DNA from: Candidatus Altimarinota bacterium
Lineage (GTDB): Bacteria > Patescibacteriota > Gracilibacteria > BD1-5 > UBA6164
Direction of reading: 5' to 3'
DNA: 64,000 bases
Assembly: GCA_028696815.1 (NCBI GenBank)
Contig: JAQVGG010000002.1
Location: 1-64,000, forward strand
Shown one piece after another: positions 17,732-64,000 of this stretch (the first letter of the stretch is position 1; every line of letters begins with the position of its first letter). The notes below the pieces were generated by a model. That model did not search any database, was not told where the DNA came from, and saw only the letters and a list, made by a program, of their open reading frames with translations. The position numbers were made by a program, and so were the translations under genes.

Positions 17732-18814
17732 TTAATCCTTTTTATTTGCAAGTTGTCAACAAGCTGCATCTATATCATCTCACATAGTAGCTCTTATAGT
17801 TGATACTACTCAGTATTTTTCTAATATATTTTGAAACTTTTCAATTATAAACCTAGGAGTTGGTTTAAATCAGTCTGAACTAGTTCACTCTCAAGGATTA
17901 TATGGTATAAAGTTCACATGAGCAAGCCTGCCTTTTAGAAGTTTTCAAAGTTCATCAGCTAATATTATATTATCATTTACTCAGTTTATCATTATGTACT
18001 CATAAAATATTCTTTTATTTGTTTTTTGCACATAATCATCAAGTGCCTTCATAAGATCTTTTAAAGGATAAGTATGATCAACTGGCATTATCTTTGATCT
18101 TATCTCATCATTTGGAGCATGAAGTGATATAGCAAGGCTAGTCTGAGGAAAATCTAAAGTAAATTTTTTAATTCCTGGAACTATTCAACAAGTTGAAATT
18201 GTTACTCTTCTATTTGCTATATTTATCTTTTTTTGAGCTGTTGCTATATCTATTGATTTTTTAACATTATCATAGTTAAGCATAGGTTCCCCCATACCCA
18301 TATAAACTATATTTCTCAAAACTCCTCCTTGCTCATTTACTAGTTTAGCAGCATACATTATTTGTTCAACTATTTCATAAAACTCTAAATTTCTTTTCAA
18401 CCCTAGTTTTCAAGTTGCACAAAAACTACATCACATAGGACACCCAACCTGACATGAAACACAAAGAGTTATTCTACCTGTTAGATGCCTCATAATAACA
18501 GCTTCGATATATTCGTACTGTTCCCTCTCCTCTCAAAGGAGAGGGTTAGGGTGAGGGCTTTTTGTTTTAAAAAGTATTTTTGTAGTTTGCCCATTTTCTG
18601 AAGTTTTTTGCATATCAATTTCTAAAGAATCATAAAAAAAGTTTTCTTTAAGCTTTTCTCTTAAATCTTTAGGAATTGTCTCTATTTTATTAAAATCAGT
18701 AATAAAATTTTTATAAATAGCATTTTCTATCTGGCTATATCTAAAAGGTGGGATTTTATTTTGAGATAAAAACTCTTTTAATTTATCTTCATCATGTATT
18801 GAAATTTTTTGCAT
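17732..18814 (-). CDS. rlmN: 23S rRNA/tRNA A-C2 methyltransferase RlmN, with an in-frame repeat insertion
   Basis: RlmN is a radical-SAM enzyme that methylates C2 of A2503 in 23S rRNA. The 360-residue protein has the cluster motif GCPMGCSFCATG (CX3CX2C) near residue 122, VYMGMGEPMLNYDNV, RVTISTCGIVPG, SLHAPND and the C-terminal IRATMGDDIDAACGQLA with the second catalytic cysteine. A GC-rich palindromic repeat lies inside the gene (18522-18558) and adds a peptide reading SPHPNPLLGEEREQ. It replaces the usual short turn between the N-terminal domain and the strand leading to the cluster. The frame is kept and one codon of the insert is TGA, so the insert is read in the host code. All catalytic parts are intact, so the enzyme is probably active. 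Confidence 0.93.
18522..18558 (-). repeat. palindromic repeat unit (family I) inside rlmN
   Basis: A GC-rich hairpin of the form CCTCACCC(T/C)AACCCTCTCC / GGAGAGGG lies within the coding sequence. In the coding direction it translates to SPHPNPLLGEERE. The base composition differs sharply from the surrounding gene. The same unit recurs in rseP, a GT4 gene, galE and recG. Confidence 0.9.
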
Positions 18815-25274: not shown

Positions 25275-26543
25275 ATGATCTTCCTTTGAATAATCGTTGC
25301 AATAATTATATTTTCAATTGTGATACTAGTCCACGAATGGGGACACTTTGCTTCTGCTAGAAAGTTTTGAGTAAAAGTTGAAGAGTTTTGACTTGGTATA
25401 CCACCACGTGCTAAAAAACTTTTTACTGATAAAAAATGAACATTGTTTAGTTTAAATCGGCTACCACTTTGAGGTTTTGTGAGATTGTATGGAGAAAATC
25501 CACAACTCTTGCAAGATAAAAACTCAAAAGAAGCTTTGTTTAACAAACCAGCTTGGCAGCAAAGTATTATCATACTTGCCTGAGTATTTATGAACTTTGT
25601 GCTAGCTATTTTTATATTTTCACTACTATTTTTCTTTTGAGTAAAACCAGTATGAGTTAACACAGTCATCCCTACTGAAGTTGAATCAAAACTTATACCT
25701 ACTTACGAACAAGCTTTAGAAAGTTGAATTTTAATAAAGTGAGAGTGAGTAGCTTTGTATCCAATAGAGGATTCTATTGCAAAAAATGCTTGAATTAATG
25801 AAGGAGATATACTTACTCATGTAATAGTTAATAATGAGCAATTAACAATTAATAGTCCTAATGAAGTAATAGATTTAGTTTGAAAACATGCTTGAGAAGA
25901 GATTGAGTTAATATTAAATACCTCATCCCAACCTTCTCCTTTGGAGGAGAAGGAGCAAGAACAATCTTCTTCCCCCTCTCCTAACAAAGGAGAGGGGTTA
26001 GGGGTGAGGTCTGTCAAAGTAACTCCATCTTCTGATTGAAAGATTTGAGCTTACTTGTGAGATAATATAAAGATAAATGAAAATTTTGAATACAATTATT
26101 CTATTTTTGAGTCTATAAAGTACTGAACAACTGAGACTTATAGTCAAATAGTCCTAACATTTAAATGAATCTGATTATTAGGAAAAAAGATATTTAATCC
26201 TGATACTCCAGAGCAAAGAGAAGAAGCTATTAGTCAAGTAAGCTGACCAATTTGAATAGTTGATTTTATAAGTAATTCTGTTGAAGCTTGATTTAAGTTT
26301 ATACTTATAATCTGAGCTATCATAAGCATAAATCTTTGAGTTTTTAACCTACTTCCAATACCAGCTCTTGATTGATGAAGATTTGTCTTTATAACTCTAA
26401 ACTGATTAATTCATAAGACATTTTGATTTAAATTTATTTCTGAAAAATCTGAAAATATAATTCACTTATTATTTTTTATTCTTTTAATTGCATTAAGTTT
26501 AATCATATGATACAATGATGTTATTAAAATTATTAGTAGATAA
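25275..26543 (+). CDS. rseP: site-2 membrane protease RseP, PDZ domain carrying an in-frame double repeat
   Basis: This intramembrane zinc metalloprotease cleaves membrane-bound regulators or signal peptides. HEWGH near residue 20 gives the zinc ligands and NLLPIPALDGGR near 365 gives the second catalytic block. A PDZ domain lies between them (about 150-235), with the usual GINEGDILTHV turn. In the PDZ domain the coding sequence at 25921-26010 consists of two GC-rich palindromic units in inverted arrangement. It reads SSQPSPLEEKEQEQ, then [14 protein letters not shown], and the PDZ strand resumes at VKVTPSS. The protein is 422 residues, and all catalytic motifs remain, so the insertion seems tolerated. 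Downstream is an HD protein 5 nt away, so the two are co-transcribed. Confidence 0.93.
25921..26010 (+). mobile_element. MITE-like pair of inverted family-I units inside rseP
   Basis: The left unit (25921-25962) matches the left flank of the DUF559 insertion in recG, including the trailing AGGAGCAAGAACA. The right unit (25971-26010) matches the right flank of the same insertion, CTCTCC..AAAGGAGAGGGG followed by TAGGGGTGAGGT. The units are in opposite orientation and only 8 nt apart. This is the structure expected if the endonuclease cargo had been deleted from a recG-type element, or if the element moves as a short non-autonomous form. The whole insert is in frame. Confidence 0.75.
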
Positions 26544-52877: not shown

Positions 52878-54046
52878 TATTTTACTAAATTATATAACTT
52901 TAAAATATTATTCTCCCGAGAAAACTTATTTTTTATTTCCTCAAAACTAACTCACTTTAACTTACTATAATTTTCAACTGCATATATTAAATTCTTCTTT
53001 AATTCTTTTTCATCTCATGCTTTAAATAAGATTAAATCTTTATGATTTGTTATCTCTTTTGTTCATCATACATCAGTTGCTACAACTACATTTTTTGTAA
53101 GAAGTCATTCTATAACCGTTGTTGGCATTCATTCTGAAAAGCTTGGATTAACAAGTATACAATTATGTTTACTTAAAAAATCAAATACAAATTCTCTATT
53201 TTTATATCATAGAAAATGTATATTTTTTCATTTACTTTTTTCTTCTAGTTTTATTTTTTCCTCACCATCTCAAATAATAATTAATTTATTATTTATTCTT
53301 GAACTAATATACGCATCTATTAGATTAGAAACTCATTTTAAAAAGACTAATCTTCATATATAAACTATTTGTACATCATCGTTTTTTTCTTCTAGGTTAT
53401 ACAGAAAATCAAGTCATCTATAAAACACACTTATTTCTCTTTTTATAAATTTATTTAATATAAATTCTTTTGAGACTTTACTTATCGCTAGCACTCTATC
53501 AGCTTTTTTAAATACCCATTTTCATATAGTTTTATCATAAATAATAGATATATATGATTTTAACTTGCTTGATAATAAAACATAACTACTACCATGTTCT
53601 ATATGTATCCATTTTATTCTATTATATTCCCTCTCCTTGCTAGGGAGAGGGTTAGGGTGAGGGCTTCTTGCAGATAATCATCCGATAAAACTAGTTAAAA
53701 AAAATCTAGTATGAGTTATAACTCTCCAATAATTTTTATTGTCTCCAATTTTTTGTTTTAAATATTTTTTAATTATTTTGTACTCTTTTGACCAAATCTT
53801 GTAAACTGGGAAATTATTTATTATCTCTATACTTGGAACTACAAGTACTTCGCAATCATCTTTTTTATATCAAATTATTTCTCAATCAAAAATAATTTTT
53901 TCTATACTCCCATAATTTAAAAATAGTTCCTGTTCAAAATCAGTAACTACATTTATAAACTCTCAAAAATCATTTTTTGTCCAATTTTGTCCTATTTCCT
54001 CTCAAACAGTTTCCACTCATCATCTATGAGGCGGAAAGTATGGCAT
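52877..54046 (-). CDS. family 4 glycosyltransferase with an in-frame repeat insertion
   Basis: The 389-residue protein has MPYFPPHRGGVETVGEEIG at its N terminus and IYIGRLVFLKGVSNLIDAY and NPSFSEGMPTTVIEGLLTKN in the C-terminal domain, all GT4 hallmarks. A family-I palindromic unit (53629-53663) is in frame and reads SPHPNPLPSKEREYN between two strands of the N-terminal domain. Homologues usually begin a few residues earlier (KINIIQF-like), and that segment is present upstream in frame without an ATG, so an alternative start is possible. A 1-nt overlap couples it to the other GT4 gene. Confidence 0.88.
53629..53663 (-). repeat. palindromic repeat unit (family I) inside a GT4 gene
   Basis: CCTCACCCTAACCCTCTCC then CTAGCAAGGAGAGGG in the coding direction; translates to SPHPNPLPSKERE. 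The loop (CTAGCA) differs from the other copies, so it is an independent variant. A degraded copy of this variant lies in the recG insert at 60471-60491. Confidence 0.88.
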
Positions 54047-56303: not shown

Positions 56304-57371
56304 CTTATTATAAAACTTCCAACTATTTCTCAAACTATCCTCTAAAGAAGTAGTAGCTTCCCAATCTAGGATAGATTTTGCTTTACTTGGATTACAATAC
56401 ACTTCACCTAAATCTCCCTCTCTTCTTGGAGCTATCTCATATGTTATATCTTTTCCAGTAACCTTTTTAGCAGCTTCCACCATCTCCAAAACTGAAACTC
56501 ATCTACCTACTCACAGATTAAAGTTATCTATAAATCCTTTTGTAGCTATCCTTTCTCCCTCTGGGGGAAAGTTAGATAGGGGGATATTTTCAAGTAATTC
56601 ATAAGCTTTTAAATGTCCATCTATCAAATCAACTACATCTATATAGTCCCTAACTCAAGTTCCATCTACTGTATCATAATCATCTCAAAAAACTCTTAAC
56701 TTTTTAAGTTCTCCTGTTGCTACTTTCATAATATACGGAAGCAAATTATTTGGAATACCATCTGGATCCTCTCATATATATCAACTCTCATGTGCTCCTA
56801 TAGGATTAAAATACCTCAAGTTTATAACATTGAATCCAGCAAATTTTGATAAATCAGTAAGTATAACTTCAAGCAAAAATTTTGTAGTACCATAAGGGTT
56901 TGATGTATTTCAAGTCACAAAATCTTCTTTAATTCAACTTTGTGCTTGCTCCCTCTCCTTCAAAGGAGAGGGTTGGGGTGAGGTATAGACTGTAGCACTA
57001 CTTGAAAATATGATATTTCTCACTCAATAATCTTTCATAAGTTCAAATAGTCTGATACTTCAAACTATATTATTATCAAAATATTCAAGGGGTTTTTCAC
57101 AAGATTCTCATACAGCCTTTAATCAAGCAAAATGTACAACTCAATCAAAATCATATTTTCTAAATACATCTTCTAGTTTAGTTTTATCTCTCAAATCAAC
57201 TTCAAAAAAATCAGGTCTATAACCAATTATTTTTTCTATACCATCGATAGTTTTTAGACTAGAGTTTGACAAGTTATCAACTATAACAGTTTTATAACCT
57301 GCTTGTTCAAAAGCAACTACTGCGTGAGAACCAATATATCCAGTTCCTCCTGTAATAAGTATTGTCTTCAT
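56301..57371 (-). CDS. galE: UDP-glucose 4-epimerase with two in-frame repeat insertions
   Basis: GalE interconverts UDP-glucose and UDP-galactose. The 356-residue protein has ITGGTGYIGSHAVVAFEQAG, VVHFAGLKAVGES, the catalytic SSSATVY and NPYGTTK, RYFNPIGAHESG and VRDYIDVVDLIDGHL. Two insertions are seen. A family-I unit (56951-56984) directly follows SSSATVY and reads [16 protein letters not shown] different repeat (56551-56584) reads IPLSNFPPEGERIATK near residue 265. Normal GalE is about 335-340 residues, so the excess matches the two inserts. Both keep the frame. The first lies very close to the active site. The gene is translationally coupled to the GT2 gene upstream. Confidence 0.92.
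56551..56584 (-). repeat. palindromic repeat of a second type (family II) inside galE
   Basis: The sequence CTTTCTCCCTCTGGGGGAAAG with a GTTAGATAGGGGGAT tail is GC-rich and unlike its surroundings. It differs from family I in the stem (CTTTC.CCC / GGG.GAAAG) but has the same style of hairpin plus purine-rich tail. Confidence 0.75.
56951..56984 (-). repeat. palindromic repeat unit (family I) inside galE
   Basis: In the coding direction ACCTCACCCCAACCCTCTCC then TTTGAAGGAGAGGGAGCAAG, read [14 protein letters not shown]. It is nearly identical to the left end of the recG insertion, including the GAGCAAG tail. Confidence 0.9.
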
Positions 57372-58835: not shown

Positions 58836-58883
58836 GCAAATAAATTACTAGACACTAACCACTAGTCACTAGTTACTAGAAAG
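58836..58883. repeat. ACTAGT-type repeat, upstream flank of the S23 gene and end of recG
   Basis: The run ACTAGACACTAACCACTAG then TCACTAGTTACTAGAAAG has a 7-8 nt period. It overlaps the last codons of recG, and the recG stop TAG is itself read from a repeat word. Confidence 0.8.
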
Positions 58884-61472
58884 TTTATTAGATAATAAAC
58901 TTTCTATATCTTCCCTAATTTGTGAAATCAAATCAAGATCTCTCAAGTCAGCAACTTTTAAGTCTGGTACTCATGATTGCCTTACTCAATACACTTCTCC
59001 AGGTCATCTAAGCTCTAAATCTATCTCAGCAAGTTCAAATCAATTATTTGTTCTTTCCATAGCTCTAAGTCTATCTGTATAGTTTCATTTACTTGGGAAA
59101 AGATAACAATAAGATTGATAAGCTCATCTACCTACTCTTCATCTAAACTGATGCAATTGTGATAATCAGAATCTTTCAGCTCATTCTATGCACATGATTG
59201 TACTATTTGGTACATCAACTCAAACTTCAACTACTGAAGTAGATGAGAGTATTTGTATTTTATTTTCACTAAAATCTCTCATAGTAGATTCTTTTTCTTT
59301 TGCACTCATCTTTCCATGTAAAAGACCAACTTTATATGGTGAAAATATATCAACCAGTGACTCATAAGTTGCTATAGCATTTGCTAAATCTATCTTTTCT
59401 GATTCTTCTACAAGTGGAGAAATCCAAAAAATTTGTCTTCATTTTTCTAACTCAGTTCTGATAAAAAGCTCAACTTGATGTCTTTCTTCTTCATTTTTAA
59501 TCACTTTTGTAAATATATCTTTTCTGCCTTTTGGATACTCATTTATGATTGATAAATCCTGATCCCCATAAAGAGTCAAAGCAAGAGTTCTTGGTATAGG
59601 AGTTGCCGTCATATTTAAGCTATGTGGAATAAGTCAGCTTCTATTTCATAAACCAGACTCTAGTACATCTCTTTGACGTACTCAAAACCTATGTTGTTCA
59701 TCGATTACTACAAGTCACAAGTTGTTAAATATTACATCTTCTTGTACAAGAGCATGAGTACCAAAAACTATGTCTATTTGTCCATTTTTTAAATCAGTTT
59801 TCACTGCTTCTTTTTGTTTTTTTGTAGTACTTCATACTAGAAGATGTGAGCTTATACCATACTTCATCAAAAGTTCCTGAGTACTCTCAAAATGCTGCCT
59901 AGCAAGAATTTCTGTCGGAGCCATGATAGCGACTTGGATAGAGTCTCCCTTCGTCTTCACCCCCCCTTCAGGATTACCTCACCTAACATTAATAACCTCA
60001 CCCCTAGCCCCTCTCCTTTGGAGTAGAGGGGAATTTCTTAGTGCATCATAAATATAATCTTCAGAATTATTTAAAATATCTTCATTTTTAAATCTTATAA
60101 TCTCAAATCAATAATTTCTTAATAGGTTTTCTCTTTCCTCATCATATTCCTTTCTTACTTTTTCATCATGAATTTTTCAATCAAGTTCTATAATTAATCT
60201 TAATTCTTCTGAATAAAAATCAGCAATATATCTTCAAATAGGATGTTGCCTTCTAAACTTAATATTTTCTAAATTATTATTTCTCAGTATTCCCCATAAT
60301 TTTTCTTCACTATTAGTAGGATGTTGTCTGAATTCTTTTGCCAAATCAAAAACATATCCAGGAGATTTTAACTCTAGTTTCCTAACACTATGTTCTTGCT
60401 CCCTCTCCTCCAAAGGAGAGGGTTGGGGTGAGGTCTGTAGCTCTTGTCAAAGTTGGACTGAGTGAGAGCTTTCCTTGCTAGGGTGAGATCTACTCCTCAA
60501 CACCCCATGCATGGCAGCCAGGACTGCAACTATTGTCTTACCTGTACCTACATCTCACTCAAGTAGTCTAGCCATAGCATGTGTTTTCTCCATATCTTTT
60601 AGGATTTGGAAAAGTACTATCTTTTGTTTATCTGTAAGTTCAAATGGTAAATCTGATATAAGAGTTTTTACAAGTTCTGCATCAAGCTGGATAGCTCTAG
60701 ATTTTCATTCACTCAACTTAAATCATTCGTGTTTTTTTGTAAGAGCTTTGTAGTTTATATCAAATAACTCTTCATAAGCTAGCCTATGCTTAGCCTCCTC
60801 TATATCATGCTTATTTTTCGGAAAATGTATCTTATAAATAGCTTCTGCTCTAGAGATAAAATTGTACTTTTGTACAATACTATCAGGTAAAGTCTCTTCT
60901 ACCCCTTGAGCTACTCCCTCTCCTCTCAAAGGAGAGGGCTGAGGTGAGGTCTGTGGCTTTATATATTTTTTTAATAGCTCTATTTTACTTACTAACCATT
61001 TGCTTGGTATGTAGTTTAGCTCTGGATATACTGGAACTATCTCTCAAGCTACTTTTGAAAGATCTGTTTCTACTTCTGGAGACTGAAAAGTTACTTTTCA
61101 AAAAGCATATTTTACTTTTCATGAAACTATGACTTTTTTCTGAGTATATAGATTTAATTGAGTAGCTAGATATTTTCTATTAAACCAAACAGCTTCACTT
61201 AAAAATCAGTTCTTATCTTCTAAAACTGCTTTTGTTAGCAACTTCCCTCATCAAGTTTTTTGTGAAGTTATAGAAACTAGAGTTACTAAGATGGTATTTT
61301 TTTCTTTGATATTTATAAGTGAAAAACTGTCCAAGACATTTGTCCTATCCTCATATTCGCGAGGAAAGTGATTAAGTAGATCTCACACAGTCTTAAATCA
61401 AGCTTTTTCCAAAGCTTTTATATAGTTATCAGTTGTGTGCAAAAGTGATTTTGTAAGAGGTGTAGAAAGCAT
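58869..61472 (-). CDS. recG: RecG branch-migration helicase containing an in-frame DUF559 endonuclease insertion
   Basis: RecG unwinds stalled forks and Holliday junctions. This copy is 867 residues, against about 690 normally. N-terminal wedge domain ([12 protein letters not shown]), motif [13 protein letters not shown] near residue 302, motif Ia [16 protein letters not shown] near 515, [10 protein letters not shown] near 587, the [11 protein letters not shown] block, [13 protein letters not shown]-like motif VI and the C-terminal clamp are all present. Between motifs I and Ia lie about 190 extra residues (59937-60505) with a complete DUF559 nuclease domain between two inverted family-I repeats. 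A further family-I unit is in the N-terminal half (60914-60950, [12 protein letters not shown]). The whole gene is open, so host and guest domains are one polypeptide unless spliced or cleaved. The TAG stop lies within an ACTAGT-type repeat. Confidence 0.95.
59996..60032 (+). repeat. family-I unit, right end of the recG insertion
   Basis: The sequence CCTCACCCCTAGCCCCTCTCC with TTTGGAGTAGAGGGG lies opposite in orientation to the left end. In the recG frame it reads [13 protein letters not shown]. Confidence 0.9.
60030..60372 (-). other. DUF559 (VSR-like) endonuclease domain within RecG
   Basis: The ~114-residue domain reads [20 protein letters not shown], then [29 protein letters not shown] and [14 protein letters not shown]. 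It has the family order of E in the first helix, an RRQxP-IG-xIxDFY strand, an IELDGxxH strand and the closing FxIIRFxNxE. This is the PD-(D/E)xK-like core related to very-short-patch-repair nucleases. All expected catalytic positions (D of ADFY, E and D of IELDG) are present. Host proteins with this domain are usually free-standing and about 110-130 residues long. Confidence 0.9.
60391..60434 (-). repeat. family-I unit, left end of the recG insertion
   Basis: In the coding direction ACCTCACCCCAACCCTCTCC with TTTGGAGGAGAGGGAGCAAG; reads [14 protein letters not shown]. It shares its tail with the galE copy and the left unit in rseP. Confidence 0.92.
60914..60950 (-). repeat. family-I unit in the N-terminal half of recG
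   Basis: In the coding direction ACCTCACCTCAGCCCTCTCC then TTTGAGAGGAGAGGGAG; reads [15 protein letters not shown]. It lies in the wedge/linker region well away from the DUF559 insert, so recG has been hit at least twice. Confidence 0.9.
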
Positions 61473-63648: not shown

Positions 63649-64000
63649 ATGAAAACACCTGATATTATAAAAGAAGCTGCTAGAAAGTTAAGAAATAAAA
63701 TGACTAAATCTGAGATTATACTTTGGAATAATATAAAATCATGAAAATTATGAATAAATTTCTTAAGACAAAAACCAATATATCTATATACAGAGGGATC
63801 ATGATTAGACAGATATATAATACCTGATTTTTATAATTTTGATAGAAAAATAATTATTGAAGTTGATTGAAGTATTCATTATTTAAAAGAAGTTTATATA
63901 TTAGACTTTGAAAAAGAAAAATTTCTTAATAGCATGTGATATAAAATTATCAGAATAAAAAATGAAGAGATTGAAAATGATATTAATAATGTTTTGCAAA
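63649..64000 (+). CDS. DUF559 (VSR-like) endonuclease, cut by the window end
   Basis: The 117 residues visible give nearly the full domain: AARKLRNKMTKSEIILWNNI, FLRQKPIYLY, LDRYIIPDFYNFDRK, IIIEVDGSIHYL and GYKIIRIKNEEIENDI. The catalytic D of IPDFY and E-D of IEVDG are intact. It is the free-standing relative of the domain inserted in recG. The two share layout but only moderate identity, so the recG copy did not arise by very recent duplication of this gene. Several glycines are TGA. A GC-rich hairpin repeat lies just upstream. The stop is beyond the window. Confidence 0.88.

Follow-up and report, generated by a model that had tools for sequence, protein, structure and literature searches.

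A double-hairpin insert in rseP of a Gracilibacteria-like genome, a probable nuclease-less form of a DUF559-bearing palindromic element

REP sequences are located between genes and carry a GTAG tag, and paired palindromes associated with a transposase are known from REP/RAYT systems (PMC8266576). Rickettsia palindromic elements are short palindromic sequences that lie in frame in unrelated protein genes (PMC10969869). Classical MITEs are short, gene-less copies that have terminal inverted repeats in common with a longer coding element, the autonomous insertion sequence. Small nuclease genes at conserved sites of core genes are a hallmark of the homing endonucleases of inteins and introns, whose nuclease-less remnants are found at the same sites.

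The insert described here resembles each of these systems in part. As in REPIN or BIME elements and their RAYT, two inverted palindromic units form one dispersed short element, a separate protein-coding form has palindromes nearby, a fold in single-stranded DNA is possible and there is no target duplication. It differs from them in that the protein is a DUF559 PD-(D/E)XK-like nuclease and not a Y1/HUH transposase, and in that the copies lie in frame inside genes and not between them; no conserved GTAG-type tetranucleotide was seen beside the palindromes in the aligned units. The Rickettsia elements are similar by description, being in-frame palindromic inserts in unrelated protein genes, but they differ in sequence and phylum. 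A nuclease-bearing long form is not described in the review cited for them, whereas ends, a nuclease and long and short states at the same site are found here. The MITE comparison holds for the shared terminal inverted repeats and the gene-less short copies, but not for the target-site duplication, which is lacking here, for the protein, which belongs to no transposase family, or for the internal hairpin within each end. Homing endonucleases likewise have nuclease-bearing and nuclease-less forms at the same core-gene sites; unlike them, the present element has no self-splicing host element and seems to be retained in the protein.

The window, a stretch of 64,000 nucleotides, is part of a Gracilibacteria-like genome of 1.19 Mb (G000) that uses genetic code 25, in which TGA encodes glycine. 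The genome was searched with a covariance model of a single palindromic unit, R1, and a model of the A-B pair, R2. The features discussed are collected in Table 1.

Table 1. Features of the rseP and recG inserts and solo units in the window
Feature	Position	Strand	Evidence
rseP, site-2 zinc metalloprotease, 422 aa, genetic code 25	25275..26543	+	TIGR00054 match; PDB RseP relatives 7w6x, 9j82
Whole paired element, RseP residues 216-246, 31 aa	25920..26010	+	R2 88.9 bits
Unit A, 5' end of pair: head ACCTCATCCC, hairpin CCTTCTCC/GGAGAAGG, tail GGAGCAAGAACA	25920..25963	+	R1 66.2 bits; own-stem compensatory changes among pairs
Spacer ATCTTCTT, 8 nt, between units A and B	25964..25971	+	Read directly
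Unit B, 3' end, inverted: hairpin CCCCTCTCC/GGAGAGGGG, head ...GGGGTGAGGT	25972..26010	-	R1 55.5 bits, match 25965-26012
recG with full-length nuclease-bearing element in frame	58869..61472	-	NCBIfam RecG and PF04480
Unit A of recG element	60391..60434	-	R1 71.4 bits
DUF559 PD-(D/E)XK-like nuclease domain of recG element	60048..60347	-	PF04480 106.7 bits
Unit B of recG element, head outward	59995..60040	+	R1 50.5 bits; R2 positions 42-89
Solo A-type unit in rlmN, in frame	18513..18559	-	R1 62 bits
Solo A-type unit in glycosyltransferase gene, in frame	53620..53665	-	R1 54.9 bits
Solo A-type unit in galE, in frame	56941..56986	-	R1 67.6 bits
Solo A-type unit in recG, in frame	60906..60952	-	R1 58.2 bits

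The insert in rseP is a 91-bp double hairpin that reads ACCTCATCCCAACCTTCTCCTTTGGAGGAGAAGGAGCAAGAACA, then 8 nt, then the inverted unit CCCCCTCTCCTAACAAAGGAGAGGGGTTAGGGGTGAGGT. R1 recovered units A and B with E-values of 4e-13 and 2e-10, respectively, for the whole genome. The original prediction of a left and an inverted right unit, 8 nt apart within the PDZ domain, was borne out with the limits adjusted from 25921-26010 to 25920-26010. So was the claim of an in-frame insert in an essential-type protease: the reading frame is open throughout RseP, the product scored 198.7 bits against TIGR00054 in a profile search (curated cut-off 147.55) and the insert is placed in a PDZ beta-hairpin by structure prediction. 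Folding of the 91-nt insert yielded a z of -6.5 relative to dinucleotide shuffles, both as DNA and as RNA, and the terminal heads ACCTCATCCC and GGGGTGAGGT pair with each other in the predicted fold. The AlphaFold2 model of RseP, the fold of which matches RseP structures, had a mean pLDDT of 85.3, with values below 50 only at residues 219-241. This stretch is flanked by strands at 210-215 and 244-249, and in the model the insert is at the tip of the beta-hairpin. The loop that bears it measures 39 aa here against 17-43 aa (median 27) in 29 orthologues. None of these 29 carried a palindromic unit of any kind, and none had the DUF559 long form; the best rseP relatives are about 60% identical.

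A search of the genome with R1 returned 85 matches at E<=0.1. The original prediction had called for a genome-wide search for the paired form, and this yielded at least 14 convergent, abutting A-B pairs of near-constant length against 0.08 expected when 74 units were placed at random. A further five pairs, mostly of a related subfamily, contained a second inverted palindrome that was not called by R1. Twelve main-family pairs aligned over 95 columns with a mean identity of 84%. Long open reading frames hold 17/19 pairs in frame, always with unit A upstream of unit B on the coding strand, and the opposite strand of each in-ORF pair also carries an open frame. Hosts identified, in addition to RseP, include PcrA/UvrD, an RsmF-like methylase, RimO, SufD, TsaD, RNase R, IleRS, a FemX-like protein, MnmA, Lgt, Mfd, UPF0489, a pilin-like protein and PriA, and the inserts occupy variable loops. 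Solo units in rlmN, galE, recG and other genes are in frame and behave in the same way. The UPF0489 genes of two genera carry paired elements of differing sequence, apparently in the same place (L128, G000:C4:1422; L230, G016:C28:4580-4683). The IleRS frame (L033, G000:C39) contains, besides its pair and a solo unit, an in-frame phosphoglycerate-mutase/alpha-ribazole-phosphatase-like domain at about residues 660-832.

Within the pairs, the own stem of each unit co-varies, one case being a change of UA to CG in unit A. Eight cells with double changes were counted in own-unit stems, a value reached in 0/500 shuffles, in an alignment that included one row made by joining the recG ends in silico. 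A long hairpin of A with B was considered as the conserved fold and rejected, as the cross-unit stems showed no co-variation. The A variant CCTTCTCC was present in 11/14 pairs against about 1/33 solo units (Fisher p 2e-7, hand-scored). No target-site duplication was present at rseP, and among 10 pairs there was at most one of 2 nt, in a single pair.

The window also holds a long form of the element, in recG. In the direction of the gene its order is A, DUF559, B, the same order and orientation as in the rseP pair. The DUF559 score of this copy (Table 1) compares with a curated cut-off of 20.6 bits, and nuclease-type motifs (ADFY...ELDG) are retained in the aligned recG copies, for which nuclease activity is predicted from sequence. 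A Hint domain was absent from the 867-aa recG product, in which Pfam identified only RecG/helicase domains and nuclease-type families. A second DUF559 gene, at 63670-64000 and continuing past the end of the window, scored 72.5 bits with no R1 units called nearby; it is probably of a different, free-standing type.

The rseP units had been predicted to match the two recG flanks in order, orientation and tail sequence. Order and orientation agree, and unit A (head ACCTCA) has the same tail, GGAGCAAGAACA, as the upstream unit of recG, but the right-hand tail bears no close resemblance to its recG counterpart. The identity of the right-hand rseP unit as B is the weaker point and rests on its B-type stem, the linker and 12 other pairs. 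The stronger proposal, that the insert consists of the ends of the recG element itself joined together, did not survive comparison with the remaining pairs, which are nearer kin. The rseP pair is identical to that of igrC4 at 84/92 positions and to those of sufD and tsaD at 83/93 (89-91%), against 79/95 (83%) for the joined recG ends. For rseP alone, a control made of two recG A ends scored 81 against 79 for A+B, so that its sharing of the recG A+B ends rests on the family of pairs, 13/13 of which score the A+B arrangement of the recG ends at or above B+A. The recG copy thus seems, from the sequences, to be a sister of the rseP pair and not its source. As the rseP pair is nearer to other pairs and its A variant is rare among solo units, pairs appear to multiply as pairs. 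The predicted description as MITE-like is apt for a short, gene-less element with terminal inverted repeats and ends shared with the recG element, but the name is a loose one, as a target-site duplication is lacking and mobilisation in trans is presumed.

Different states of a single site were found in other genes. Between GHYAR and KDQSYF, MnmA has 12-18 aa in 15 relatives, the empty state, and 26-32 aa with short palindrome-coded peptides in four others (G029, G042, G041, G025). The same stretch measures 43 aa in G000, where it is an A-B pair, a related pair being present in G040, and 183 aa (G016) or 200 aa (G028) in two genera in which it is A-DUF559-B. At its site in PriA, G000 has a pair and G031 the DUF559 form; in TsaD, a short unit in G000 and the DUF559 form in G029 occupy the same place. 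The existence, as originally proposed, of the recG-type element in a paired form that lacks the endonuclease is thereby upheld by its recurrence across the genome, by end-specific A and B units and by the same-site states of MnmA and PriA. It is on the series at these two sites that the reading of the rseP insert as a nuclease-less form of the DUF559 element is based; for rseP, with 29 orthologues that lack any unit, the link between long and short is made through the family and not through a same-site series.

DUF559 was present in 33/48 genomes of the family, with many copies bracketed by convergent units. It lies in frame at the same recG loop in 11 genomes (the window and loci L072, L076, L077, L078, L080, L081, L086, L087, L100 and L161). 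Other in-frame hosts are mnmA (G028, G016), tsaD (G029), priA (G031), recQ (G040) and leuS (G020), the last two of which were named from the translated sequence and not from a profile. In the nuclease tree, recG-borne DUF559 was polyphyletic: that of G025 grouped with the recQ copy of G040 (98/98) and that of G019 with the priA copy of G031 (97/91). Since the recG-borne nucleases do not form one clade, the element must move between host genes and the recG site must have been occupied more than once. Similarity of the nucleases was correlated with that of the A ends (Mantel 0.41, p 0.001) and of the B ends (Mantel 0.35, p 0.001), with shared ancestry not fully removed from either test; the B-end result is somewhat window-dependent, there being no signal when the window cut into B and a significant one after it was moved. 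The best match for unit A of rseP is with ends from the recG nuclease clade, and unit B of rseP is top-scoring with members of that clade.

Taken together, these data make it likely that the rseP insert is a nuclease-less A-B copy of a mobile palindromic A-DUF559-B element whose pairs multiply, presumably with the nuclease acting in trans. Each end has an outward-facing head (AGACCTCA...) and a small hairpin of its own, and in single-stranded DNA the heads could pair to give a closed structure with two hairpins. The DUF559 nuclease, which co-varies with its cognate ends, would recognise them and cut the DNA, and repair or template switching would then place a copy of the element at another site with no target duplication. 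All forms can be read, in the frames used, as a hydrophilic, Pro/Glu-rich peptide, so copies landing in frame in surface loops may survive, the host protein being translated through the insert as preservation of the frame would imply. Nuclease-less pairs would have arisen by loss of the nuclease and may now multiply as pairs.

DUF559 was found in 14/14 genomes with at least five units and a Y1 transposase match in 7/14. At genus level, unit number was correlated with DUF559 at a rho of 0.67 (p 0.001) against 0.31 (n.s.) for Y1 transposase, values from which shared ancestry is again not fully removed. Two of the three richest relatives, which have 49, 42 and 39 units under the stricter filters used for relatives, lacked a Y1_Tnp match (those with 49 and 39). 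G000 contains a single RAYT-like Y1 gene (L220:1366-1917; G000:C11:27918-28271), which scored 60.8 bits against an NCBIfam cut-off of 80 and 37.3 bits for PF01797, and no R1 unit was found within 1.5 kb of it. DUF559 is the better candidate for the mover because it is present in all unit-rich genomes, Y1 in half of them, and the RAYT-like gene has no units beside it. From this we infer mobilisation by DUF559, including cutting, copying and action in trans.

The alternative, that the pairs are REPIN- or BIME-like and are moved by the RAYT-like Y1 transposase with DUF559 as a passenger that also uses the ends, draws on the presence of that one gene and on the resemblance of head-out inverted palindromes to REPINs. 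Its isolation from any unit, the seven unit-rich genomes that lack Y1_Tnp while all possess DUF559, the co-variation of ends with the nuclease, the intragenic position of the copies and the lack of a GTAG tag in the ends make it distinctly improbable. A different order of events, in which the short pair is ancestral and was repeatedly invaded by the DUF559 gene in the manner of a homing endonuclease, so that the pair is not a deletion derivative, agrees with several observations. Pairs far outnumber long forms in G000 (14 to 19 against 1), the nucleases at the recG site are polyphyletic and R2 matches are abundant in Nostoc and Phormidium genomes, where many elements were counted on both strands as R2 is nearly palindromic. 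Each nuclease subtype nevertheless keeps its own ends from one host gene to another, a pattern that speaks for nuclease and ends moving together, and this order is considered somewhat unlikely.

Two further readings concern the insert itself. Many genes hold a solo A unit in frame, such units being common, and solo B-like units exist too, so that two unrelated palindromic units might have inserted independently, side by side, in rseP, the case named as contrary to the original prediction. The recurring pair architecture, with near-constant length, an invariant A-B order, at least 14 pairs where 0.08 were expected and an A-stem variant largely confined to pairs, leads to rejection of this coincidence as very improbable. 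Removal of the insert as an intron or intein or by translational bypass, such that it is never in the protein, would render insertion into conserved proteins harmless. It is nonetheless highly doubtful. The frame is kept in 17/19 pairs, for which neither RNA splicing nor bypass would call, the 31-aa insert shows no residues of a splicing domain, an Rfam search of the window found neither an intron nor any other family, and the inserts lie in variable loops.

The association of DUF559 with inverted repeats extends to other phyla. At 45/63 loci the inverted repeats flanking DUF559 exceeded all 100 shuffles, made by a simple two-base block shuffle, compared with one control window. These loci belong to Cyanobacteria, Zixibacteria, Nitrospirae, Chloroflexi, Armatimonadetes, Sphingomonadales and Clostridia, and the sequence of the repeat differs by lineage. 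The DUF559 genes of Clostridia (L183-L199) are flanked by inverted CCTCCCTTGTGTAAAGGGAGGTGGC-type repeats. In Planktothrix and Oscillatoriales (L160, L188, around 1501-1788) the DUF559 flanks read like an intein splicing (Hint) domain, which suggests that there DUF559 is also the homing nuclease of an intein. No link between DUF559 and palindromes appeared in the titles and abstracts of open-licence papers that mention DUF559, a weak sign of novelty. DUF559 may represent, as a tentative proposal held at slightly less than even confidence, a widespread and undescribed class of mobile element with a nuclease, double-hairpin ends and nuclease-less pairs amplified in trans, translated in frame in core genes of Gracilibacteria, with many of the abundant palindromic repeats of other phyla as its short forms.

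Few dispersed repeats are as common in bacteria as palindromic ones, and what moves them is seldom known except in REP/RAYT systems. Here one such repeat is tied to a specific nuclease family, and a single gene site is seen empty, with the short form and with the long form. These observations come from inside the core proteins MnmA, PriA, TsaD and RecG, whose inserts appear to be translated. A new-looking selfish DNA thus appears to spread through core genes without breaking them. The identity of the mover of the repeat is now directly testable, and the inserts amount to a naturally occurring set of loops lengthened to different degrees in essential enzymes.
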